Positions 16,361 through 29,574 of a DNA stretch of 64,000 bases are shown here, piece after piece. A program made the translations under genes and the position numbers. How positions within the stretch are numbered: position 1 is the first letter of the stretch; every line of letters begins with the position of its first letter. This stretch comes from Allobosea vaviloviae (GTDB lineage Bacteria > Pseudomonadota > Alphaproteobacteria > Rhizobiales > Beijerinckiaceae): contig NZ_LGSZ01000025.1 in the NCBI RefSeq assembly GCF_001298265.1, forward strand, positions 1-64,000. The letters run 5' to 3'. The notes beneath the pieces were generated by a model that saw only the letters and a program-made list of their open reading frames with translations, did not search any database and was not told the origin of the DNA.

Positions 16361-17116
<756 letters not shown>

Positions 17117-17151
17117 GCAAACGCTCCGCCCTGCCGCTGGGCGCAACAGGG

Positions 17152-17180
17152 TCCCCTCCCCCCGCAAGCGGGGGGAGGGA
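17152..17180. repeat. Family A repeat, single half
   Basis: CCCTCCCCCCGCAAGC followed by GGGGGGAGGG, a short hairpin-forming half of the family A element, lies between the two ATPase genes of the second peptide ABC operon. Confidence 0.85.
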
Positions 17181-17217
17181 GTGGCGCTCGCTTCCGGCGC
17201 CTTGATTGCCTGCATCA

Positions 17218-18099
17218 TCATGCCAGCCATGCCGGATCGCGGTTGAGCGTGGCGAGCTCCGCCTTGGGATGGTCGAGATCCGGCAGGCAGCCGAGCAGGC
17301 CCAGCGTATAGGGGTGGCGTCGAGCACGGGCCGACTCGTCGGCGAGTTCGGCGGCGGGCAGCGTCTCCATCGCCTTGCCGCCATACATCACGATGACGCG
17401 GTCGCAGAAGGACTGCACCAGATGCAAATCGTGGCTGATGAAGATCAGCCCCATGCCGCGCTGCGTCACCAGATCGTCGAGGATCTTCAGGATCTGGAGC
17501 TGGACGGTGACGTCGAGCGCCGAGGTCGGCTCGTCGGCGATCAGGATGTCGGGCTCGGCGATCAGCATCATCGCGATCATGACGCGCTGGCCCATGCCGC
17601 CGGAGACCTCGTGCGGATAGAGCTCGTAGACGCGCGCGGGTTCGCGGATCTGCACCTGCTCCAGCATGGCGAGGCTGCGCTGCCTGGCCTCGCGGGCGCT
17701 CGCCTTGTGGTGAACGCGATAGGCCTCCGCGATCTGGTCGCCGACGGTGCGGACCGGGTTGAGCGAGAATTTCGGGTCCTGCATCACCATCGAGATATGG
17801 CGGCCGCGCAGCTTGCGGCGGGCGCGCTTGTCCATCGTCAGCAGATCCTGGCCGCGATAGGTCAGGCGGTCGGCCCTCACCTCACCGGGATGGGGGATCA
17901 GGTCGAGGATGGCGCGGCCAGTCATCGACTTGCCGGAGCCGGATTCGCCGACGATGCCGAGCCGCTCGCGGCCGAGCGTGAAGGACAGGCCGCGCACGGC
18001 CTGGACGATGCCGGTCGGGGTGTGGAAATCGACGCGCAGATTGTCGAGTTCGAGGAGGGGCTGTTCGCTGGTGCTCTCATTCATGGCGCTCTGATTCAT
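17218..18099 (-). CDS. Peptide ABC transporter ATPase (first of pair)
   Basis: A 293 aa DppD-like subunit: Walker A GESGSGKSM near 49-57, QDPKFSLNPVRTVGDQI (Q-loop), signature VSGGMGQRVMIAM, Walker B ILIADEPTSALDVTVQLQ, and a C-terminal HPYTLGLLGCLPDLDHPK segment. Position 2 of the signature QR motif reads GMGQR rather than the usual GMRQR. The ATG at 18097-18099 has GAGGTGAG upstream and lies 5 bp after the permease stop; the much longer open frame to 19068 is a shadow of the permease. Confidence 0.93.
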   Translation of the reverse strand: MNQSAMNESTSEQPLLELDNLRVDFHTPTGIVQAVRGLSFTLGRERLGIVGESGSGKSMTGRAILDLIPHPGEVRADRLTYRGQDLLTMDKRARRKLRGRHISMVMQDPKFSLNPVRTVGDQIAEAYRVHHKASAREARQRSLAMLEQVQIREPARVYELYPHEVSGGMGQRVMIAMMLIAEPDILIADEPTSALDVTVQLQILKILDDLVTQRGMGLIFISHDLHLVQSFCDRVIVMYGGKAMETLPAAELADESARARRHPYTLGLLGCLPDLDHPKAELATLNRDPAWLA

Positions 18100-18104
18100 G
18101 GCGC

Positions 18105-18995
18105 TCACCTCGCATCCATGACGTCGCGCAGGCCGTCGCCGAGCAGGTTGAAGCCCAGCGCGACGACGCAGATCGCCAGGCCGGGGAAGGTCGCGACCCA
18201 CCACTGGTCGAAGATCTGCTCGCGGCCGGCCGAGATCATCGCGCCCCATTCGGGAATCGGCGGCTGGGCGCCGAGACCGAGGAAGCCGAGGCCGGCCGCG
18301 ATCAGGATGATGCCGGCCATGTCGAGCGTCGTGCGCACGATCAGCGAAGGCAGGCACATCGGCACGACATGCTTCCAGACGATGCGCCATTGCGAGGCGC
18401 CCTGCAGGCGGATCGCCGCGATATAATCCTGCTGGCGGATGATCAGCGTTTCGGCGCGGGCGACGCGGGCATAGGGCGGCCAGGCCGTGATCGCGATGGC
18501 GATGACGGCGTTTTCCAGGCCGGGGCCGAGCGCCGCGACGAAGGCCAGCGCCAGGACGAGGCGGGGAAAGGCGAGGAAGACATCGGTGATGCGCATCAGC
18601 AGGCGGTCGACCCAGCCGCCGAGATAGCCCGAGGTCGCGCCGATCAGCAGGCCGATCGGGCCGACCGTGATGACGACGAGCAGCACGATCACCAATGTGA
18701 CGCGGGTGCCGTAGACGATGCGGCTGAAGATGTCGCGGCCGAGCGAATCGGTGCCAAAGAGGTTTCCGCCCGAGGGCGGCAGCAGGCGCCGGTCGAGGTT
18801 CTGCGCCAGCGGATCGGCAGTCGCGATCAGCGGCGCGAAGGCTGCGACCAGCAAGAGCGCGACGATGATGGCGAGCCCGAACATGGCCAGCGGATTGCGC
18901 CGGAAGGCGAGCCATTTGCGATAGGCCTGGCCAAGCCGGGCCTGACGCCGGGACGCCGGAGAATCGCTGAGGAGATAGTCGGTCCAGGTGGTCAT
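18105..18995 (-). CDS. Peptide ABC transporter permease (DppC type)
   Basis: The 296 aa inner-membrane subunit has the DppC signature FGTDSLGRDIFSRIVYGTR (about 90-108) and a BPD_transp_1 core with the EAA loop IRLQGASQWRIVWKHVVP near 195. It partners the DppB-type permease encoded at 19683-20747. Its ATG overlaps the TGA of the upstream antitoxin gene (ATGA) and has no clear Shine-Dalgarno of its own, so its translation probably depends on ribosomes finishing the antitoxin. That is unusual for a transporter operon. Confidence 0.93.
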   Translation of the reverse strand: MTTWTDYLLSDSPASRRQARLGQAYRKWLAFRRNPLAMFGLAIIVALLLVAAFAPLIATADPLAQNLDRRLLPPSGGNLFGTDSLGRDIFSRIVYGTRVTLVIVLLVVITVGPIGLLIGATSGYLGGWVDRLLMRITDVFLAFPRLVLALAFVAALGPGLENAVIAIAITAWPPYARVARAETLIIRQQDYIAAIRLQGASQWRIVWKHVVPMCLPSLIVRTTLDMAGIILIAAGLGFLGLGAQPPIPEWGAMISAGREQIFDQWWVATFPGLAICVVALGFNLLGDGLRDVMDAR

Positions 18996-19285
18996 GCGAG
19001 TTCAAGACGGATGTGTCGCCCGACCGCCTTGGCGGCACGCGACAGCATCCCCAGCGTGACGGAGTCATTATTGGGGTCGAGCAGCCGGTTCAACTGTGCC
19101 CGACTGGTGGCGAGGCGCCGTGCCATTTCGACCTTGGTGATCTTCTGCTCCTGCATGATCGCGCTCAACTGCCAGGCAATGACGCGCTTGACCGCCGTTT
19201 CGGCGACCTCCTCGTAAATGCCGTCCTCCTTGAGGAAGTCATCGAAGGACTGCCCCAGGCGGCCTTGCTCGGTATCCTCGCTCAT
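18992..19285 (-). CDS. higA: HigA-like antitoxin, XRE-type HTH
   Basis: A 97 aa protein with an Xre/Cro helix-turn-helix: KITKVEMARRLATSRAQLNRLLD (about 49-71) and the downstream helix VTLGMLSRAAKAVGR typical of HigA antitoxins that pair with Gp49-like toxins. It should neutralise the HigB-like toxin encoded immediately upstream and repress the pair. ATG 19285 overlaps the toxin stop (TGATG) and is preceded by GAGGTG; the open frame to 19447 is a toxin shadow. The 3' end overlaps the start of the DppC-type gene. Confidence 0.9.
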   Translation of the reverse strand: MSEDTEQGRLGQSFDDFLKEDGIYEEVAETAVKRVIAWQLSAIMQEQKITKVEMARRLATSRAQLNRLLDPNNDSVTLGMLSRAAKAVGRHIRLELA

Positions 19286-19641
19286 CACCTCAGTCCCTTC
19301 ATCCGTCTTAGCGCAACCTCGATCTCGCGATCGGGCGTCTTCTGCGTCGTCTTCTCGAAACCGTGCAGCAGAGCCATGTGCCCGCCATGGACACAGAACA
19401 GAACGCGTGCGATCCGCCCTCCCGCCAGACTGCTCCGCACCTCCCAAAGTCCCTTGCGTCCCGTGATCGCGCGGCAGAGCGGCATTCCGATCGGCCAGCC
19501 GAACTCCACCGCCTTGATATCCGCCCCGATCACTTTCCGGTCTTCCGACGACAAACCCAACAGCCAGTCGCGCACAGGCGCGGTCCCCCGCTCGGTCTCA
19601 TAGAACGCAGCCGGCAATCGCTTTCCGACAGGTTCGATCAT
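19285..19641 (-). CDS. higB: HigB/RelE-like toxin (Gp49 family)
   Basis: A 118 aa basic protein of the phage-derived Gp49/HigB family, probable ribosome-dependent or free mRNA interferase. The family blocks are RDWLLGLSSEDRKVIGADIKAVEFGWPIG (about 24-52), LWEVRSSLAGGRIARVLFCV (66-85, with basic residues of the RelE-like active site) and LLHGFEKTTQKTPDREIEVA (92-111). Toxin precedes antitoxin, the order typical of higBA. It is inserted between two permease genes of a peptide transporter operon, 41 bp after the DppB-type stop. Confidence 0.9.
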   Translation of the reverse strand: MIEPVGKRLPAAFYETERGTAPVRDWLLGLSSEDRKVIGADIKAVEFGWPIGMPLCRAITGRKGLWEVRSSLAGGRIARVLFCVHGGHMALLHGFEKTTQKTPDREIEVALRRMKGLR

Positions 19642-19648
19642 GTCACTT

Positions 19649-19668
19649 ATGTACTAAAAATGATACAT
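19649..19668 (-). promoter_or_regulatory. Probable HigA operator upstream of higB
   Basis: In the 41-bp AT-rich gap before the toxin, ATGTA-N10-TACAT forms a perfect inverted repeat ending 7 bp upstream of the toxin ATG. It is a likely antitoxin-binding site overlapping an internal promoter. Inferred from position and symmetry. Confidence 0.55.
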
Positions 19669-19682
19669 CTATCTAAGCTGCC

Positions 19683-20747
19683 TCATCGCGTCCGGGGATC
19701 GACGAGCCGGCCGAGGATGTCGGACAGCAGGTTGACGCCGATGAAGACGGCCCCGATCACCAGCGTGCCGCCGAGCACCGCGTTCATGTCGGCGTTGAGC
19801 AGCGAGTGGGTGAGATAGCGTCCGAGGCCAGGCCAGGCGAAGATCGTCTCGGTCAGGACCGAGCCTTCGAGCAGGTGCATGTAGGAGACGGCGATGACCG
19901 TCACCAAGGGCACGAAGGCGTTGTGCATGGCGTGGCGCCAGACGACGCGGAACTCCGAGAGCCCCTTCACGCGCGCCGCGATGACGTATTGCTGCTGCAG
20001 CTCGGTGATCATGAAGCTGCGGGTCATGCGGCTGATATAGGCGACGCTGAGGATGCCGAGCACGGCCGACGGCAGGATCAGATGGGACCAGGCGTCGCGG
20101 AAGGCCTCCCAATCGCCCTCGATCGCGGCGTCGATGACAAGGATGCCGGTGATCGGGGTGATCAGGTCCTGAAAGGCGACGCCGGCGCGGCCCGGCCCGC
20201 CGACCCAGCCGAGCTTGGCGTAGAACAGCAGCAGGCCCATCAGGCCGAGCCAGAAGACGGGGATCGAATAGCCGAAGAGGCCGATGACGCGGGCGACCTG
20301 GTCCGGCCAGCGGCCTTGATAGACCGCCGCCAGCACGCCCAGGGGGATGCCGAGCAGGCAGCCGATCAGCGTGCCGAGCGTGGCGAGTTCGAGCGTGGCC
20401 GGAAAGACGCGGCGGATGTCGTCGACGACGGTGTTGGAGGTCAGGACCGAGCGGCCGAGATCGCCGGTGAAGACCTTGCCGACATAAACAGCGAATTGCT
20501 GCCAGAGCGGCTTGTCGAGACCGAGCTCGATGCGCGCGGCGTCATAGGTCTCGGGGCGGGCGTTGTCGCCAACGACGGCCAGCACCGGGTCGATCGGGAT
20601 GACGCGGGCGATGAAGAAGGTGATCAGCAGCAGGCCGAAGATGGTGATCGCGACCGTGCTGAGCTCACGCGAGGCGAGTTTCGCCCAGCGTCGCGCCGTC
20701 TCGCTCCATGATCGCCTTCGGATCGGGCCTTGGGCCACGCTGCTCAT
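19683..20747 (-). CDS. Peptide ABC transporter permease (DppB type)
   Basis: The 354 aa inner-membrane protein has the first helix at about 31-50, ARVIPIDPVLAVVGDNA after it, and the BPD_transp_1 core with EAA loop ARVKGLSEFRVVWRHAMHN near 255; it ends ILGRLVDPRTR. Its ATG is taken at 20747 (MSSVAQ). The open frame reaches 21023 but the extension would overlap the binding-protein gene and the terminator hairpin. The gene follows that hairpin by about 72 bp and precedes the higBA pair. Confidence 0.92.
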   Translation of the reverse strand: MSSVAQGPIRRRSWSETARRWAKLASRELSTVAITIFGLLLITFFIARVIPIDPVLAVVGDNARPETYDAARIELGLDKPLWQQFAVYVGKVFTGDLGRSVLTSNTVVDDIRRVFPATLELATLGTLIGCLLGIPLGVLAAVYQGRWPDQVARVIGLFGYSIPVFWLGLMGLLLFYAKLGWVGGPGRAGVAFQDLITPITGILVIDAAIEGDWEAFRDAWSHLILPSAVLGILSVAYISRMTRSFMITELQQQYVIAARVKGLSEFRVVWRHAMHNAFVPLVTVIAVSYMHLLEGSVLTETIFAWPGLGRYLTHSLLNADMNAVLGGTLVIGAVFIGVNLLSDILGRLVDPRTR

Positions 20748-20818
20748 GCCATGTTTCCGTTTCCGGGATTCTTGATCCGGGCCTTCGCTCCGGCCGGGCC
20801 GCGCGAGCAGCCGGAAGC

Positions 20819-20857
20819 AAAAGCCCCGCCACGGCCGCGCAGGGCCGTGGCGGGGCT
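20819..20857 (-). terminator. Strong hairpin, partial terminator after the binding-protein gene
   Basis: A perfect 15-bp stem AGCCCCGCCACGGCC with a 6-nt loop, followed by TTTT on the minus strand, lies 15 bp past the stop of the binding-protein gene and before the permease gene. It probably terminates most transcripts and stabilises binding-protein mRNA, lowering permease and toxin-antitoxin expression. Confidence 0.85.
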
Positions 20858-20871
20858 TGCGGCCCGTTGCG

Positions 20872-22476
20872 TCAGTTCTTGGTGATCGGCGCGTAGAAGT
20901 TGGTGTCCGAGCTCGGGCCGATGGCCCAGCCCTTGACGCCCTTGCGATCGGCCGAGACCTCGACCTGCTGGAACATGATGACGAAGGGCGAGACCTTCTG
21001 GTGCTCACGCTGGAGATCGCCATAGATGGCGGCGCGCTTGGCGGCGTCGGTCTCGAGTACGTTGGCCTGCGTGGTCTTGGTCATCTCCGGGATGTCCCAG
21101 GCATTGCGCCAGGCCAGCGTCTTCGACTTGGCGTCCTCGCCATTGTTCTCGTTGATGGCGAAGGTCTCGGCATTGGTGTGCGGGTCGAGATAGTCCGGGC
21201 CCCACTGGCCGATATAGATGTCGTGGGTGCGGGCGCGGTACTTGGTCAGCGTCTGCTTGCCGTCGCCGGGGATCAATTCGAGCTTGATGCCGGCCTGGCC
21301 CCAGCTCGACTGGATCGCCTGGGCGATGTCGGTGATCGGGTTGACCGAGCGGACGTCCATGGTGACCGTGAAGCCGTTGGGCAGGCCGGCCTTGGCGAGC
21401 AGCTCCTTGGCCTTGGCGGGGTCGAACTTGTAGGGCTTGTCGCTGATCGCGCCGAGGAAGCCCTGCGGCAGGAAGGATTCATGGGCCTTGTAGGTCCCCT
21501 CGACGATGTTGCGCTCGATGGAGGCGTAATCGACGAGATACTTCAGGGCTTCGCGCACTTCGGGTTTGGCGAGGTTGGCGTTCTTCGAGTTCAGGCCGAG
21601 ATAGAGGATGTAGCCCTTGTCGCCCTGGACGATCTCGACATCCTTGTTGCTTTTGACCGCGGCGAGCTGGTCCTTGGAGAGGTTGCGGGCGATGTCGATG
21701 TCGCCCTTCTCCAGCAGCAGGCGCTGCGAGGCCGGCTCGGCGACGTGGCGCACGACGATGCGCTTGTTCTTCGGCGCGCCCTTGTACCAGCTCTCATTGG
21801 CGTCGAGCGCGTATTGCTCGTTGGGGCGATAGGCGCGCACCTTGTAGGCGCCCGAGCCGGCCGAATTGAGCTTCAGCCAGCCATTGCCGAAATCGCCATC
21901 CTTCTCATTGGCCTTGACCAGCTTGGTGTCGACGATCGAGGCGACGCCCGAGGTCAGGCAGTTCAGGAAGAAGGTCGGGGCGAAGGGCTTGGAGACGGTG
22001 ATGACAACGGTGGCGTCATCGGTGGCCTTCACCTTCTCCAGGACATTGTCCTTGGTGAAGCCGAACTGGGCCAGGATGAAGCCGGGCGACTTGTTGAGCG
22101 TCACCGCACGCTGGAACGAATAGACCACGTCGGCGGCCGTCAGCGGGTTGCCGGAGTGGAACTTGACGCCGGGGCGCAGCTTGAAGGTGTAGGTCAGGTT
22201 GTCGGGCGAGACGCTCCAGCTCTGGGCGAGCTCGGTCGTCAGCTCGTTGTTCTTGGCGAGATCGACGCCCATCAGCTTGTCGTAGAGGTTGGTGACGACC
22301 TCGACGCCGGAGAATTCGAAGGCCTCGGCCGGATCAAGCGAGATGATGTCGTCGATCTGCTTGGCCATGACCACCGTGTCCTTCGGGGTCTGGGCAAAGG
22401 ACACCGTGGTCTGGGCAGTGGTGGTCAGCAGCGTGGCAAAGGCCGACGCCACCATCAGTTTCGCTACGTGACGCAT
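20872..22476 (-). CDS. Periplasmic peptide-binding protein of ABC transporter (SBP_bac_5)
   Basis: A 534 aa secreted binding protein with a Sec signal peptide (MRHVAKLMVASAF..., cleavage probably after VSFAQ) and the family 5 blocks SLDPAEAFEFSG, LTYTFKLRPGVKFHSGNPLTAADVVYSFQRA, and a C-terminal QHQKVSPFVIMFQQ-like region. It captures the peptide or opine imported by the downstream permeases. ATG 22476 has GGGGA five bases upstream; ATG 22488 would add four residues. The frame further upstream (to 22680) is not conserved-looking. Head of the second ABC operon. Confidence 0.92.
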   Translation of the reverse strand: MRHVAKLMVASAFATLLTTTAQTTVSFAQTPKDTVVMAKQIDDIISLDPAEAFEFSGVEVVTNLYDKLMGVDLAKNNELTTELAQSWSVSPDNLTYTFKLRPGVKFHSGNPLTAADVVYSFQRAVTLNKSPGFILAQFGFTKDNVLEKVKATDDATVVITVSKPFAPTFFLNCLTSGVASIVDTKLVKANEKDGDFGNGWLKLNSAGSGAYKVRAYRPNEQYALDANESWYKGAPKNKRIVVRHVAEPASQRLLLEKGDIDIARNLSKDQLAAVKSNKDVEIVQGDKGYILYLGLNSKNANLAKPEVREALKYLVDYASIERNIVEGTYKAHESFLPQGFLGAISDKPYKFDPAKAKELLAKAGLPNGFTVTMDVRSVNPITDIAQAIQSSWGQAGIKLELIPGDGKQTLTKYRARTHDIYIGQWGPDYLDPHTNAETFAINENNGEDAKSKTLAWRNAWDIPEMTKTTQANVLETDAAKRAAIYGDLQREHQKVSPFVIMFQQVEVSADRKGVKGWAIGPSSDTNFYAPITKN

Positions 22477-22720
22477 CGCATTCCCCATCGTTTCGGATTG
22501 GCGGCCGTACGCGCCGGCCATTGGCGTGAATGTGGAACCAGTCGGCGGCTTCTGTCCAGCAGGACGAGGCCCGTGTCCAGATGTTGCTGCACAGTTCTTG
22601 TGCATCGGGCTGCCCGGATCGTGCAATGCGTCGCGAGATGCGGCTTTGCGAGCCTTCCCGGCCTCGCTAACGTGGAACATCCCGGCCCTCGCCGGCCCAT
22701 GACCAACAGGTGCTCAGCTC

Positions 22721-25700
22721 TTGGCCATCATCGCCGCGCTTCATCACGTCACCCATTACCGTTATGACCGGCCGGTCACGCTCGGGCCGCAGATCATTCG
22801 GCTGCGGCCGGCGCCGCATTGCCGCGCCGCGATCAACAGCTATTCGCTGAAGGTTTCGCCGGCCGAGCATTTCGTAAACTGGCAGCAGGACCCGTGCGGC
22901 AACTGGCTGGCGCGCTATGTCTTTCCCGAGCCGGTGAGCGAGTTCCGCATCGAGGTCGATCTCGTCACCGAGTTGTCGATCATCAATCCGTTCGACTTCT
23001 TCGTCGAGACGGATGCCGAGATCTTCCCCTTCACCTATCCCGAAGAGCTGCGGGCGGAGCTTGCGCCCTATCTTGTCACCGAGCCGGCCGGGCCGCTGCT
23101 GCAAGCCTTCCTCGCCACCATCCCGCGCGAGCCGACCAACACCGTCAACTTCGTCGTCGACCTCAATGCGCGGCTCGCGGGCGGCATCGCCTATGGCATC
23201 CGCATGGAGCCCGGCGTGCAGGAGCCCGAGCACACGCTCGACATCAAGTCCGGCTCCTGCCGCGATTCGAGCTGGCTGCTCGTCCAGATCCTGCGCCATC
23301 TCGGGCTCGCCGCCCGTTTCGTCTCGGGCTACCTGATCCAGATGAAGGCCGACATCGACCCGTTGGAGGGTCCGCGCGGCACCGACAAGGACTTCACCGA
23401 CCTGCACGCCTGGGCGGAGGTCTATATTCCCGGCGCCGGCTGGATCGGGCTCGACCCGACCTCGGGCCTGCTGACCGGTGAGGGCCACCTGCCGCTGGCG
23501 GCGACGCCGCATTACCGTTCCGCCGCGCCGGTCTCGGGCGTCGCAAGCTATGCCGAGACGACCTTCGATTTCGAGATGAGCGTGGCGCGCGTTCATGAGG
23601 TGCCGCGCATCACCCTGCCTTTCTCGGATGAATCCTGGCAGCGGCTGGATGCGCTCGGCGAGCAGGTCGAGGCCGATCTCCAGGCCGGCGATGTGCGCCT
23701 GACCATGGGGGGCGAGCCGACCTTCGTCTCGATCGACGACCAGACCGGCGAGGAATGGAACATCGCCGCTGTCGGCCCGACCAAGCGCCAGCGCGCCGAT
23801 GTGATGATCCGGCGCCTGCGAGAACGCTTCGCGCCCGGCGGCATGCTGCATTACGGCCAGGGCAAATGGTATCCGGGCGAGAGCCTGCCGCGCTGGGCCT
23901 TCGCGCTCTACTGGCGAGCCGATGGCGAGCCGATCTGGCGCGACGCCGCGCTGATCGCGCGCGAACCGGGCGCGCCGACCGGCGGCGACCGCGAGCTGGA
24001 AGCCGGCGCCACGATCGCCGAAGCCGAGGCGCTAGCCGAGGGTCTGTCGGACAAGCTCGGGCTCGGCTCCGATTATGTCGTGCCGGCCTATGAGGACACC
24101 GGCTACTGGCTGCTGAAGGAGGCCCAGCTTCCCGACAATGTCGATCCACTCGACCCGCGCCTGGCCGACCCGGAGGAGCGCGCGCGCATGCAGCAGGTCT
24201 TCCAGCTCGGGCTGGGCAAGCCGCGCGGCTATGTGATTCCGGTGCAGCGCTGGCAAGCACAAGCCGGCGACAAGCGCTGGCGCTCCGAGAAATGGAAGCT
24301 GCGCCGGGGCAAGCTCTTCCTCGTGCCGGGCGATTCCCCCGTCGGCTACCGCCTGCCGCTCGGCTCGCTGCCGGTGGTGCCGAAGGCCGAATATCCGCAT
24401 ATCCACCCGCAGGATCCGATGGAGGAGCGCGCGCCGCTGCCGCGCGCCGCCGGCGGCTTCGGACCAGCGGCCGACCCGCCGCCCGCCGAGGCACCGATCC
24501 GCGTCGAGCCGCACGCCTCCCAGGACTTACCGCCGCATCAGATGTCGCGCACGGTCGAGGCCAGCGGCGCTTCCGCCCAGGATCGCACCGAGCAGGAGAT
24601 CGGCGGCGAACATGTGCGCACCGCCATCAGCCTCGAGATCCGCGACAATGTGCTGTGCGTCTTCCTGCCGCCGGTCGAGCGGCTGGAGGATTATCTCGAC
24701 CTCATCGCCAGCGTCGAGCAAGTGGCGCGCGAGCGCAACCAGCCCGTCCATATCGAGGGCTATCCGCCGCCGCACGACCCGCGCCTGAACGTCGTCAAGG
24801 TCACGCCCGATCCCGGCGTGATCGAGGTCAACATCCATCCGGCGCGCAACTGGCGCGAGGCGGTCGAGATCACGCGCGGCGTCTATGAGGAGGCGCGGCA
24901 ATCGCGGCTCTGCGCCGAGAAGTTCATGGTGGACGGGCGCCATACCGGCACCGGCGGCGGCAACCATGTCGTGCTCGGCGGCTCAACCCCGCCCGACTCG
25001 CCGTTCCTGCGCCGGCCGGACCTGATCAAGAGCCTCGTGCTCTACTGGAACCGGCACCCTTCGCTGTCCTATCTGTTCTCCGGGCTGTTCATCGGCCCGA
25101 CCAGCCAGGCACCGCGCATCGACGAGGGGCGCCACGACGCGCTCTACGAGCTGGAAATCGCGCTGGCGAAGATCCCGCAGCCGGGCGAGGCTGCGATCCC
25201 GCTCTGGCTGGTCGACCGGCTGCTGCGCAATCTCCTGGTCGATGTTTCCGGCAACACCCACCGCACCGAGATCTGCATCGACAAGCTCTATTCGCCGGAC
25301 GGCCCCACGGGACGGCTCGGCCTGATCGAGTTCCGCGGCTTCGAGATGCCGCCGGATGCGCGCATGAGCCTGGCGCAGCAACTCTTGGTGCGGGCGCTGA
25401 TCGCCTGGTTCTGGCGCGAGCCGCAGACCGGCGGGCTGGTGCGCTGGGGCACGACGCTGCATGACCGCTTCATGCTGCCGGAGATGGTCTGGCAGGATTT
25501 CAAGGACGTGCTCGGCGATCTCGGCCGCGCCAGCTATGCCTTCGACCCGGTCTGGTTCGAGGCGCAGGCCGAGTTCCGCTTCCCGTTCTTCGGCAAGGTC
25601 GAGCATGGCGGCGTCGAGATCGAGATCCGGCAGGCGCTCGAGCCCTGGCACGTCATGGGCGAGGAAGGGGCGATCGGCGGCACGGTGCGCTATGTCGACT

Positions 25701-26128
25701 CGTCGGTCGAACGCCTGCAGGTCAAGGCGAAGGGGCTGGTGCCCGGCCGCCACCTGATCACCTGCAACGGACGACGCCTGCCGATGACGCCTGCGGGGGG
25801 AGCCGGCGACAGCGTCGCGGGGCTGCGCTTCAAGGCCTGGCAGCCGGCGTCCGGCCTGCATCCGACAATTCCGGTGCATGCGCCGCTGACCTTCGACATC
25901 GTCGATACCTGGGTCGGGCGCTCGCTCGGCGGCTGCGTCTACCATGTCGCGCATCCCGGCGGTCGCAATTATGACACTCCGCCTGTGAATTCCTACGAAG
26001 CGGAGGCGCGCCGGCTCGCACGTTTCGAAGCGATCGGTCATACTCCCGGCGCGCTGGCGATTCCGCCTGAAGAGCGCAGCGCCGAATTCCCGTTCACCCT
26101 GGATTTGAGGCGTCCCCCCGGAGTGTAG
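22721..26128 (+). CDS. Transglutaminase-like protein with DUF2126 domain
   Basis: A 1135 aa cytoplasmic protein. Residues ~1-290 form a bacterial transglutaminase-like N-domain plus cysteine-protease-fold core; the triad is intact: C180 in [10 protein letters not shown]229 in [10 protein letters not shown]245 in GLDPTSG. The remaining ~800 residues are the DUF2126 region (e.g. [20 protein letters not shown] near 335, [25 protein letters not shown] near 745). The start is TTG at 22721 (typical family N-terminus [14 protein letters not shown]). It heads a three-gene operon with an ATP-grasp/alpha-E protein and a second transglutaminase. Families of this type are predicted to form or transfer amide bonds; no substrate is known. 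Confidence 0.93.
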
Positions 26129-26137
26129 ACGCAAGCG

Positions 26138-28699
26138 ATGGCATTGCAGGGGCGATCACCGTCGGCGCGCACCAGAACGGAGCGGCGCAACGTACTGCTG
26201 GCCGGATATCGGCCGCTTCCGGGCGTGCATGACGAGCTGATCGGCCGCGACGGCCAGGTGCGCCCGCAATGGGAGCCGTTCCTGGCCGAGTGGTGCGCCC
26301 TGTCGCCGGAGGAGCTGATCCAGCGCTTTGGCCTCGCTGACCGGCATGTCCACGATACCGGCGTGTCCTACCGCGTCCATGGCGACCTCGACGGGCAGGA
26401 CCTGACCGCGGGCGAACGGGCATGGCCGCTCAGCCATGTGCCGCTCGTCATCACCGGCGCCGAATGGGCGACGATCGCGGCAGGCGTGGCGCAGCGTGCG
26501 CACCTGCTGGGCACGCTGCTCGACGACATCTACGGCCCCGGCGAGATGATCGCCAACGGGCTCCTGCCCGCATCCGTCGTCACCGGGAGCGCCGATTATC
26601 TGCGCCCGCTGCAGGGCGCGCCCGGCGGCGGCGCGCTGCAGCTCTATGCCGCCGATCTCGGGCGCGGGCCCGATGGGCGCTGGTGGGTGCTGCAGGACCG
26701 CACCCAGGCGCCGTCAGGAACCGGCTACGCCCTGGAAAACCGGCTCGCGCTGTCGCGGGCCTTCCCGGACATGTTCCGGACGATGAACATCGAGCGGCTG
26801 GCCGCTTTCTTCCAGGGCTTCCGCGCGGGACTGGTGGCGAGTTCGAAGCGCGTCGAGCCGCGCATCTGCCTTTTGACGCCCGGCCCCCTCAACGAGAGCT
26901 ATTTCGAGCAGACCTATCTCGCGCGCTATCTCGGCTTCCTTCTCGTCGAGGGCGGTGACCTGATCATGCGCGAGGGGCGCGTGCATGTTCGCACCATCGC
27001 CGGGCTGAAGCGGGCCGACGTGATCTGGCGGCGCATCGACGGCGATTTCGCCGACCCGCTGGAACTCAACGCGCATTCGGCGCTCGGCGTCGCCGGCCTG
27101 GTCCAGGCCGTGCGCCAGGGCAGCGTGCATATCGCCAACGGGCTCGGCTCGGGCGTCGTCGAGGCCCGTGCCCTGATGGGCTTCCTGCCGGCGCTGGGGG
27201 AGAAACTCCTCGGCGAGGAGATGATCCTGCCCAATGTCGCGACCTGGTGGTGTGGCCAGCCGCGCGAGCGCGCCGCCGTGCTCGACCGTCTCGACGAGAT
27301 GAGCATCGCGCCGGCCTTCCGCAGCGCGGGCGGTGGGCTCGACACCGGGCCGGTCGTTGCGGCCGACCTGCCGCCCCGGGAGCGCGACGCCTTGCGAGCC
27401 CGGATCGAGGCGCGCGGCATGGACTATGTCGGGCAGGAGGTCGTGCGGCTCTCGACCACGCCGGTGTTCCAGAACGGCCATCTGGAGCCGCGCCCGATGA
27501 CGCTGCGCGTCTTCGCCGCCAACACACCCGACGGCTGGAAGGTGATGCCCGGCGGCTTCTGCCGCATCTCCGACGAGCCGGATGCGCGCGCGGTCAGCAT
27601 GCGCAGCGGCGTGCGCTCCAGCGATGTCTGGGTGACGTCCGACGCGCCCGTCGAGCAAGTGACGCTGCTGCCGACGGCCGACCGCATCACCATCCGCCGG
27701 GTCACCGGCACACTGCCGAGCCGGGCCGCCGACAATCTGTTCTGGCTCGGGCGCTATCTCGAGCGCACCGAGGCGACGCTGCGGCTGGTGCGGGCGCTGC
27801 TCGGCCGGCTGATCGATGCCGACGTCACCAACCCGGCCCGTCCCGACACGGTGCGGCGGCTGGCCAATATCCTGGTCGCCTGGGGCGCCGCCCCCAATGC
27901 CAAAGGCTTGGCGTCGAAGGGGCGCGGCCCTGCCGTCGGAAAGGTCTCTCCGGCTCTCGCGCAGGCGACGGCTGCGCTCTACGATGCCGCCGAATACGGC
28001 TCGGCGCGCGCCAATGTCGGCGAGGCAAGGCGCACCGCCTCGGTCATCCGCGAGCGCTTGTCGATCGATGCCTGGCGTCTCTTCGGCGATCTGCTGCGCC
28101 AGTTGACGCTCGAGCCGGGGCGGCAGCCGAGCGAAGGCGAAGTCTACGAGGTTGCGGACCGGGCCCTGAAGACGCTCGCCGCCTTCTCCGGGCTGAGCCA
28201 GGAGAACATGGTGCGCGGGCCGGGCTGGCGCTTTCTCGACATCGGCCGCCGGATCGAGCGCGGCATCGCGACCTGCCGCTTTGCCCGCCATTTCGCCGAG
28301 ACGACGGCGCCGAGCGACGGGCTCGACGCACTGCTCGACCTGACCGATTCCCAGATCACCTACCGCTCGCGCTACATGGTCGGCGCCAGCCTTCAGCCGG
28401 TGCTCGATCTCGTCATGCTCGACCCCTACAATCCGCGCTCGGTCGCCTTCCAGGTCGACCGGCTCGACACCGAGATCCGCGACCTGCCATCCCTGACCGA
28501 GGATGGCATGCTGGAAGCGCCGCGCCGGCTGATCCTGAAGCTCGCCGCCGAATGCCGCACGGCGGAAGCCTCGCGGCTCGACCGCGCCAGTATCCTGTTG
28601 TTCGAGCAGTTGCTGATGGGCGTTTCGAGCGCGATTGCCGACCGCTATTTTCTGCAGAACAGCGGTCCCGAAGGCTCCCGGTTGACAGGCATCGCGTGA
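26138..28699 (+). CDS. Circularly permuted ATP-grasp protein fused to alpha-E domain
   Basis: An 853 aa protein combining two proteins that are usually separate. Residues ~1-490 are the circularly permuted ATP-grasp domain (RPLQGAPGGGALQLYAADLGRG, WVLQDRTQAPSGTGYALENR near 195, EARALMGFLPALGEKLLGE near 350). Residues ~520-850 are the helical alpha-E domain, starting ADNLFWLGRYLERTEATLRL (529-548). ATP-grasp enzymes activate carboxylates as acyl phosphates; with transglutaminase partners a peptide ligase or tagging role is predicted. The start is 9 bp after the upstream gene and its stop overlaps the next GTG. Confidence 0.93.
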   Translation: MALQGRSPSARTRTERRNVLLAGYRPLPGVHDELIGRDGQVRPQWEPFLAEWCALSPEELIQRFGLADRHVHDTGVSYRVHGDLDGQDLTAGERAWPLSHVPLVITGAEWATIAAGVAQRAHLLGTLLDDIYGPGEMIANGLLPASVVTGSADYLRPLQGAPGGGALQLYAADLGRGPDGRWWVLQDRTQAPSGTGYALENRLALSRAFPDMFRTMNIERLAAFFQGFRAGLVASSKRVEPRICLLTPGPLNESYFEQTYLARYLGFLLVEGGDLIMREGRVHVRTIAGLKRADVIWRRIDGDFADPLELNAHSALGVAGLVQAVRQGSVHIANGLGSGVVEARALMGFLPALGEKLLGEEMILPNVATWWCGQPRERAAVLDRLDEMSIAPAFRSAGGGLDTGPVVAADLPPRERDALRARIEARGMDYVGQEVVRLSTTPVFQNGHLEPRPMTLRVFAANTPDGWKVMPGGFCRISDEPDARAVSMRSGVRSSDVWVTSDAPVEQVTLLPTADRITIRRVTGTLPSRAADNLFWLGRYLERTEATLRLVRALLGRLIDADVTNPARPDTVRRLANILVAWGAAPNAKGLASKGRGPAVGKVSPALAQATAALYDAAEYGSARANVGEARRTASVIRERLSIDAWRLFGDLLRQLTLEPGRQPSEGEVYEVADRALKTLAAFSGLSQENMVRGPGWRFLDIGRRIERGIATCRFARHFAETTAPSDGLDALLDLTDSQITYRSRYMVGASLQPVLDLVMLDPYNPRSVAFQVDRLDTEIRDLPSLTEDGMLEAPRRLILKLAAECRTAEASRLDRASILLFEQLLMGVSSAIADRYFLQNSGPEGSRLTGIA

Positions 28700-29574
28700 T
28701 CTACGACGTCCGGCACATCACGACCTACGGCTACAGCCGCATGGTCCCCTTCGCGCGCTGCATCCTGCGGCTGCAGCCGCGCAGCGATGGCGGCCAGACC
28801 GTCGCGTCCAGCGAACTCATCATCACGCCACGCCCGGCCGAACGCGTCGATGGAATCTGCTTCTTCGGCAACCCGATGACGACGCTGACGATCTCCAAGC
28901 CGCATCGCGAGCTCAGGGTCGAGATGCGCGCGCGTGTCGAGGTGAACCGGCCGCCCCCGCCCTTTCCCGGCCTGACGCGGCATTGGGAGGAGGTCTGCGC
29001 GCTGGCGCTGGCCTCCGACAGTCTGGCGCCGGAATCCCCTGCGCATCATCTCTATCCGAGCCGGCTGGTGCCGCCCGTTCCAGCGGTGACCGATTATGCC
29101 AGGGCGAGCTTCCCGCCGCTGCGGCCCGTGCTCGAAGGCGCCAGCGAACTGATGGCGCGCATCCGCCGCGAGTTCACCTATGACCCAGACGCGACAGAGG
29201 TCTCGACGCCGCTGGAGGAAGCCTTCCGCAACCGCCACGGCGTCTGCCAGGATTTCGCGCATGTGATGATCGCGGGGCTGCGGGGCCTCGGCCTGCCGGC
29301 GGCCTATGTCAGCGGCTATATCCGCACCATCCCGCCGCCGGGCGAGAAGCGGCTCGAAGGCGCCGATGCCAGCCATGCCTGGGTGATGCTCTGGTGCGGG
29401 CCCGAGACCGGCTGGATCGGGCTCGACCCGACCAATGATTTGATCGTCGCCGACGACCATATCGTCACGGCTTTCGGCCGCGACTATGCCGACGTCTCGC
29501 CGCTGGACGGCGTGGTGGTCGGTCCGGGCTCCCAGAAGATCGGCATCGCGGTCGATGTCATCCCGGTGATCTGA
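28696..29574 (+). CDS. Transglutaminase-like cysteine peptidase/ligase
   Basis: A 292 aa protein with the bacterial transglutaminase N-terminal beta domain (IYDVRHITTYGYSRMV) and the catalytic core: C184 in HGVCQDFAH, H227 in SHAWVMLW, D244 in GLDPTND. All three residues are present. It may cleave or form the amide link made by the ATP-grasp partner. GTG 28696 overlaps the upstream TGA (GTGA), implying translational coupling; the 775 aa open frame reaching 27247 is a shadow of the ATP-grasp gene. Last gene of the operon. Confidence 0.93.
   Translation: MIYDVRHITTYGYSRMVPFARCILRLQPRSDGGQTVASSELIITPRPAERVDGICFFGNPMTTLTISKPHRELRVEMRARVEVNRPPPPFPGLTRHWEEVCALALASDSLAPESPAHHLYPSRLVPPVPAVTDYARASFPPLRPVLEGASELMARIRREFTYDPDATEVSTPLEEAFRNRHGVCQDFAHVMIAGLRGLGLPAAYVSGYIRTIPPPGEKRLEGADASHAWVMLWCGPETGWIGLDPTNDLIVADDHIVTAFGRDYADVSPLDGVVVGPGSQKIGIAVDVIPVI

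Follow-up and report, generated by a model that had tools for sequence, protein, structure and literature searches.

Positions 22721-29574 of the window (the first 64,000 nucleotides of contig NZ_LGSZ01000025.1 of Allobosea vaviloviae, an alphaproteobacterium) carry three coupled genes encoding two transglutaminase-like proteins (TGases), P1 and P3, and between them P2, a protein in which a circularly permuted (CP) ATP-grasp domain is fused to an alpha-E domain. The same genome contains, on another contig (C4), a classical operon with the same three domain families and Anbu. In the window the ATP-grasp has lost most of its presumed ligands and both TGases are intact, whereas in the C4 operon the ATP-grasp has kept these residues and the TGase has lost its nucleophile. 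As read from the sequences, the live and dead parts of the two operons form a mirror image, which suggests that they are halves of one system. We put at about even the chance that the window operon is "module 2" of a two-operon system of amide ligation and cleavage, with the C4 operon ("module 1") as its partner. The features of the window operon are listed below.

22721-26128, + strand: P1 (open reading frame 1, ORF1), TGase-DUF2126 protein, TTG start, 1135 amino acids
P1 residues about 7-246, + strand: TGase domain, with the codons of Cys180 (23258-23260), His229 (23405-23407) and Asp245 (23453-23455)
23552-26110, + strand: DUF2126 region; its predicted glutamine synthetase (GS)-fold part ends near P1 residue 960 and is followed by a beta-rich C-terminal part
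26138-28699, + strand: P2 (ORF2), CP ATP-grasp (predicted non-catalytic) fused to alpha-E, ATG start, 853 amino acids
26441-27568, + strand: ATP-grasp domain of P2 (Pfam)
26693-26701, + strand: Gln186-Asp187-Arg188 of P2, Glu-Asp-Asn in stand-alone relatives (Glu and Asn are presumed Mg ligands)
27308-27310, + strand: Ala391 of P2, Lys in stand-alone relatives (presumed ATP-phosphate lysine)
27713-28651, + strand: alpha-E domain of P2 (Pfam)
28696-29574, + strand: P3 (ORF3), stand-alone TGase, GTG start, 292 amino acids
29245-29247, 29374-29376 and 29425-29427, + strand: codons of the P3 triad, Cys184, His227 and Asp244

P1 and P2 are separated by 9 nucleotides and P2 and P3 overlap by 4; the GTG start of P3 was chosen by us, the listed ORF being longer. 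The ORF coordinates and Pfam bear out the gene order and domains given by an earlier sequence-only reading, and the alignment of relatives shows that its two numbered Cys-His-Asp triads (C180-H229-D245 and C184-H227-D244) are exact and intact. We also agree with it that the operon, in which ATP-grasp, alpha-E and TGase are encoded together, is a cluster of the ATP-grasp/alpha-E/TGase kind. Iyer 2009 is said to have predicted this kind of system earlier.

Residues kept and lost in the two operons

P2 contains the Pfam domains CP_ATPgrasp_2 (468.2 bits, residues 102-477) and Alpha-E (233.1 bits, residues 526-838). Its ATP-grasp was compared within 130 distinct copies, of which 36 are stand-alone, 85 are fused to alpha-E and nine are cut by the end of a locus (numbering of the C4 ATP-grasp as reference). 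The residues D149, E162, N164 and K370 are each kept in 36/36 stand-alone copies. Among the fused copies, position 149 is occupied by Asp in 56/85 and by Glu in the remaining 29, E162 is present in one (L042), N164 in none (Arg in 77) and K370 in six; the glycine-rich loop that follows the lysine is also scattered, and the nine cut copies likewise lack E and N. At the four positions P2 displays D173, Q186, R188 and A391, and it does not contain the D, E, N, K set, of presumed ligand role, expected of a competent CP ATP-grasp. The proposal of the sequence-only reading that the fused protein is an ATP-dependent ligase is not supported, P2 being devoid of three of four residues invariant in its stand-alone relatives. 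From the computed loss of ligands we infer a loss of activity: the fused ATP-grasp looks catalytically dead and, because its presumed metal and ATP-phosphate ligands are lost, P2 is most likely a non-catalytic scaffold or substrate-binding partner. The residues R298, D306, N334 and G337 are kept in 85/85 fused copies, and therefore the ATP-grasp domain of P2 is maintained.

The D, E-x-N, K pattern of the stand-alone ATP-grasps resembles that of glutathionylspermidine/trypanothione synthetases, whereas the fused subfamily lacks E, N and K and the profile comparison is not significant. D318, E330, N332 and K533 are invariant in 22/22 GspS sequences, and the stand-alone spacing D-x(12)-E-x-N recalls D318-x(11)-E330-x-N332. 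According to the accessible part of a study based on modelling on crystal structures (PMC3581523), the counterparts in trypanothione synthetase bind Mg and the ATP phosphates. The alpha-E domain (window 27680-28696) is confidently predicted to be all-helical (pLDDT 90.3), and its model has no clear counterpart in the PDB; residues W22, R25, R29, R35, G171, F185, G189, R190, D223, N251 and R253 (numbered within 27680-28696) are invariant in 40 sequences.

The C4 operon, which the sequence-only reading had missed, encodes an ATP-grasp of 477 amino acids with D149, E162, N164 and K370 all present, an alpha-E protein of 365, a TGase of 280 and an Anbu of 266. This Anbu is the only Anbu match of the genome and matches solved Anbu chains (E 1.7e-84 with a designed Anbu, 9.2e-71 with 5nyj). 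Pro is found at the nucleophile position of the C4 TGase; a Burkholderia cenocepacia relative has Ser at this position. Module 2 shares its three domain families with the Anbu operon and differs from it by the fused ATP-grasp/alpha-E without the presumed ligands, by the addition of the TGase-DUF2126 protein and by the absence of Anbu. No Anbu gene lies inside the window operon, and an Anbu query gave no match in the 80 best loci among the at least 593 stretches recovered from the genome collection in a scan for P1 relatives.

P1 matches Bact_transglu_N (92.1 bits), Transglut_core (59.2 bits) and DUF2126 (1333.5 bits, residues 278-1130); P3 matches Bact_transglu_N (81.3 bits) and Transglut_core (67 bits), as well as the structures 6g49 and 3isr. 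C180, H229 and D245 of P1 are each invariant in 81/81 sequences. In the P3 alignment, H227 and D244 are conserved in 70/70 sequences and C184 in 69/70, the single Cys-less row being the C4 TGase, added for comparison. These triads lead us to predict that P1 and P3 transfer or cleave amides via Cys. DUF2126 is predicted to adopt an amidoligase fold of the glutamine-synthetase/GCS type, a point absent from the sequence-only reading; the GS fold is found in the predicted model only. Owing to this predicted fold, DUF2126 would be a likelier ligase than the fused ATP-grasp. The fold and the invariant acidic, His and Arg residues (candidate metal-binding residues E679, E702, H749, E870 and R872 in 81/81 sequences, at positions not alignable by sequence to the GS/GCS2 metal sites) recall the GS/GCS2 proteins YbdK and GmaS, from which the DUF2126 protein differs by the absence of detected sequence similarity, by its extra beta-rich C-terminal part and by its N-terminal TGase.

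Two genome samples were surveyed, one of the family (60 genomes) and one of the class (115 genomes), with G000 and G070 common to both. Of the genomes with the fused gene, 37/38 in the family and 17/19 in the class also have a stand-alone ATP-grasp. It is very unlikely, in our estimate, that the window holds a self-contained peptide-tagging operon with the fused protein as its ATP-dependent ligase. The four residues kept in all fused copies would agree with such an operon, as would the release of phosphate from ATP by the ATP-grasp of the Yersinia Anbu operon, reported in the accessible part of PMC6376114, and the fused gene found without a stand-alone ATP-grasp in G177 (95% complete), G069 and G099. 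However, the presumed Mg/ATP ligands are lost throughout the fused subfamily, and G069 and G099 are only 78% and 84% complete, so that their stand-alone gene may be unassembled.

Module-1 transglutaminase in genomes with and without module 2

In the family sample, module 2 (scored as the fused gene or DUF2126) is present in 41 genomes, 38 with the fused gene and 34 with DUF2126; the stand-alone operon alone is found in 15 and neither in four. The module-1 TGase is intact in 15/15 genomes without module 2. Among the 41 genomes with module 2, it is intact in nine, Cys-less in 20 and not found in 12. All 20 Cys-less family TGases are thus in module-2 genomes; their Cys is replaced by A, P, S, G or V, and they conserve the Asp (20/20) and the His (19/20). 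Seven family genomes contain the fused gene without DUF2126, and in these the TGase is Cys-less in one and missing in six, including G177, which also lacks the stand-alone ATP-grasp. In the class sample, a stand-alone pair could be read in 17 genomes with the fused gene, and the TGase of this pair is intact in three, Cys-less in five (replacements P, G, Y and S) and absent in nine. Of the 18 class genomes without module 2, 14 have an intact adjacent TGase, none a Cys-less one, and four have none. In one further class genome, DUF2126 is present but the fused gene and the TGase are absent, and 4/40 were unreadable. G035 and G042 were scored as TGase-absent though P3 itself adjoins their stand-alone pair, only about 1 kb of contig is left beside the pair of G044, G065 has a second pair without TGase, and in G096 the TGase scored as intact is of a different type and lies 1.2 kb away. 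G154 (C66, C8; L264, L265) has two Cys-less module-1-type TGases with identical residues flanking the missing Cys.

If the two operons are partners, the module-1 TGase would have been free to lose its Cys or to vanish because P3 or P1 took over its job. It is unlikely, in our view, that the operons are instead separate pathways and that the TGase loss merely follows the lineages owning module 2. Shared ancestry may underlie the association. Separate pathways would agree with the clustering of module 2 on the tree, the lack of power of the independent pairs, the Cys kept in nine of the 41 module-2 genomes and the adjacent TGase missing from the four class genomes without module 2 mentioned above. 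Separate pathways are nevertheless difficult to reconcile with the absence of Cys-less module-1 TGases from the 15 family and 14 class genomes without module 2 (G070 in both), with the differing Cys replacements and the seven changes that Cys loss needs on a tree of alpha-E and Anbu (44 rows), and with the loci where both modules adjoin. The modules are neighbours in L113 and L114, and also in L117, L122 and L119 (Burkholderia, Caballeronia and Halomonas records). In L112, P1 is divergent from the stand-alone ATP-grasp, alpha-E and Anbu genes and the fused gene is absent. The DUF2126 cluster of the Acidithiobacillus caldus megaplasmid (L120) includes stand-alone ATP-grasp and alpha-E and no fused ATP-grasp/alpha-E; its P1, which may be broken, is split into two parts separated by 1.45 kb, and genes for an amino acid permease and an aliphatic amidase are found there along with glnL/ntrC and two Anbu-like genes.

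We infer the partnership of the operons and the order of the steps from the computed domain content, Cys loss and co-distribution. The module-1 ATP-grasp and DUF2126 would be live ligases that form an amide or isopeptide bond by way of an acyl phosphate. P2, predicted to be non-catalytic, would bind the same kind of substrate and present it to P3 (and P1), which would use a Cys acyl-enzyme to transfer or cleave this bond, and Anbu would act further downstream. Somewhat doubtful, and put forward tentatively, is the stronger version in which the paralogous operons decayed complementarily, the fusion in module 2 being a pseudo-ligase and a GS-fold ligase having been gained there, live and dead paralogues form mixed complexes and neither operon works alone. 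No description of complementary decay of two operons was met in the literature searched.

Several observations weigh against the two-operon system. The mapping of E162/N164 onto GspS E330/N332 comes from an hhalign segment of negligible score (probability 0.2%, E 0.3), and that of K370 onto K533 from another segment, just as weak, obtained with the profile of the fused copies. The best TM-score of DUF2126 with a GS-fold target is 0.35-0.36 (rmsd 9-10), Foldseek gave no match at E <=0.001 with the DUF2126 model, the fold match being structural only, and the sequence comparison with GS/GCS2 gave neither similarity signal nor alignment. No Anbu match was found in four of the 17 class genomes with DUF2126. 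The Fisher test in the family (p = 8e-8 with missing genes, 1e-5 without) ignores ancestry, and the five independent pairs on well-supported branches (1-3 for, 0 against) have no power. Since 9/41 module-2 genomes have an intact module-1 TGase, module 2 allows the loss of this enzyme but does not demand it. Among genomes with DUF2126 and without the fused gene, the TGase is intact in G162 and Cys-less in G134 and G175; the fused gene is therefore not needed for every loss. Some of the 12 family genomes without a TGase gene could hold a strongly diverged TGase that was missed. The 400 bases preceding P1 in the window contain no -24/-12 sigma-54 site, even with three mismatches allowed. In the accessible parts of the publications, the Anbu data are said to make a role in peptide synthesis less likely, co-expression having given no new form (PMC5666114), and a pull-down with Yersinia Anbu gave no specific partner.

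Distribution and gene neighbourhood of module 2

Among the matches listed, the closest relatives of P1 come from a Hyphomicrobiales metagenome-assembled genome (MAG, 95%) and a Bosea (83%). P1-P2-P3 are found in order in 70 of the 80 best loci, and therefore the arrangement is not due to chance. Three other loci have P1-P2 with P3 unseen (255 to 2249 bases remain past P1), one is cut by a contig end and six have no P2 or P3 after P1 (L053, L072, L077, L085, L086 and L106). L085 and L086 have a gene of the same family 3' of P1 (GGDEF in L086), with one gene intervening in L085. P2-P3 occur without DUF2126 in L107-L110. According to their titles, most of the loci belong to Alphaproteobacteria; other sources are a Pseudomonas (L100), a Planctomycetaceae MAG (L103) and a Nitrospirales MAG (L104). 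The same three genes are found in the acidobacterium Granulicella. In the class sample, DUF2126 was detected in 17 genomes (13 of them with Anbu), Anbu in 29, and alpha-E and ATP-grasp in an identical set of 40, which upholds the view of the sequence-only reading that these two domains belong together. Neither the operon nor the ATP-grasp/alpha-E fusion is rare, and the fusion is the ordinary form at such loci.

A transporter precedes the operon in the window:

16361-22680, - strand: oligo/dipeptide-type ABC transporter (SBP_bac_5 binding protein, two permeases, two ATPases; Pfam), divergent neighbour of P1

The full transporter set adjoins P1 only in L027 and L028, the two closest relatives, among the 80 best loci; it is a neighbour and only a candidate member of the system. 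Downstream of the operon is a gene with a FAD_binding_3 domain (Pfam). A putative zinc-binding metallopeptidase (PF15887), a candidate extra component, is encoded near P1 in nine of the 80 loci, in seven of them divergently and immediately before P1; an instance is L038:8529-9761. In Caballeronia (L122:7814-8875) it separates P1 from the stand-alone pair. In ten loci, mostly rhizobial (L057, L058, L060, L061, L064, L067, L069, L071, L073 and L081), a Tad/VWA protein gene lies downstream of P3, together with glycogen genes for phosphorylase and GlgB and, in most of these loci, a nucleotidyl transferase gene after them.

Probable link to nitrogen and significance of the two operons

The published expression data are taken from the accessible parts of the papers cited. 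In Pseudomonas putida grown on nitrate versus ammonium, PP_2685 and PP_2688 are up by 4.44 and 3.99 log2 units (PMC8050072). In a table of nitrogen limitation PP_2686-2688 change by 11 to 37 and the Anbu gene PP_2685 by only 1.1 to 4.8 (PMC7801951); induction of these module-1 relatives is also reported in PMC3325844. In a B. cenocepacia H111 ntrC mutant the DUF404/407, DUF403, TGase-like and large TGase-like genes change by -6.0 to -9.4 (PMC5491218); gene order matches them with the stand-alone ATP-grasp, alpha-E, TGase and TGase-DUF2126 genes read in another strain. A general nitrogen rule is countered by the unchanged expression of the Anbu operon under various conditions (PMC5666114). Among 85 upstream stretches, most of them preceding P1 and three preceding a stand-alone ATP-grasp, a sigma-54 site at <=2 mismatches occurs in 14 (five on the reverse strand), against an average of 3.4 in shuffles. 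The two-operon system is probably nitrogen-linked.

These data also bear on a further explanation, namely that the TGases are deamidases or peptidases and that the system salvages nitrogen in starvation, with no tagging. The induction in P. putida, the NtrC-dependent transcription of the four H111 genes, the glnL/ntrC, Anbu-like and amidase genes near the A. caldus cluster and the divergent peptide transporter of the window all point in this direction. Salvage would leave the retention of two ligase folds unexplained, the transporter adjoins P1 in only 2/80 best loci, and Anbu displayed no peptidase activity on the substrates tried, as far as the accessible text goes; we judge this explanation quite unlikely. 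Among known systems, rlo likewise combines an ATP-grasp with a TGase-like protein (inactive) and a peptidase, and RloABC/RimK-RimB differ from module 2 in that rlo has a membrane TGase, an ATP-grasp 24% identical to RimK and an aspartic peptidase (PMC12239564, accessible part).

The ATP-grasp/alpha-E system is widespread, both domains being found in 40 of the 115 class genomes. If the two operons are complementary halves, assays of a single protein or a single operon in such hosts are expected to fail, and a negative result of ATP hydrolysis with the fused P2 alone may say little about the whole system. The genomes containing module 1, module 2 or both constitute a natural series for guilt-by-loss tests.

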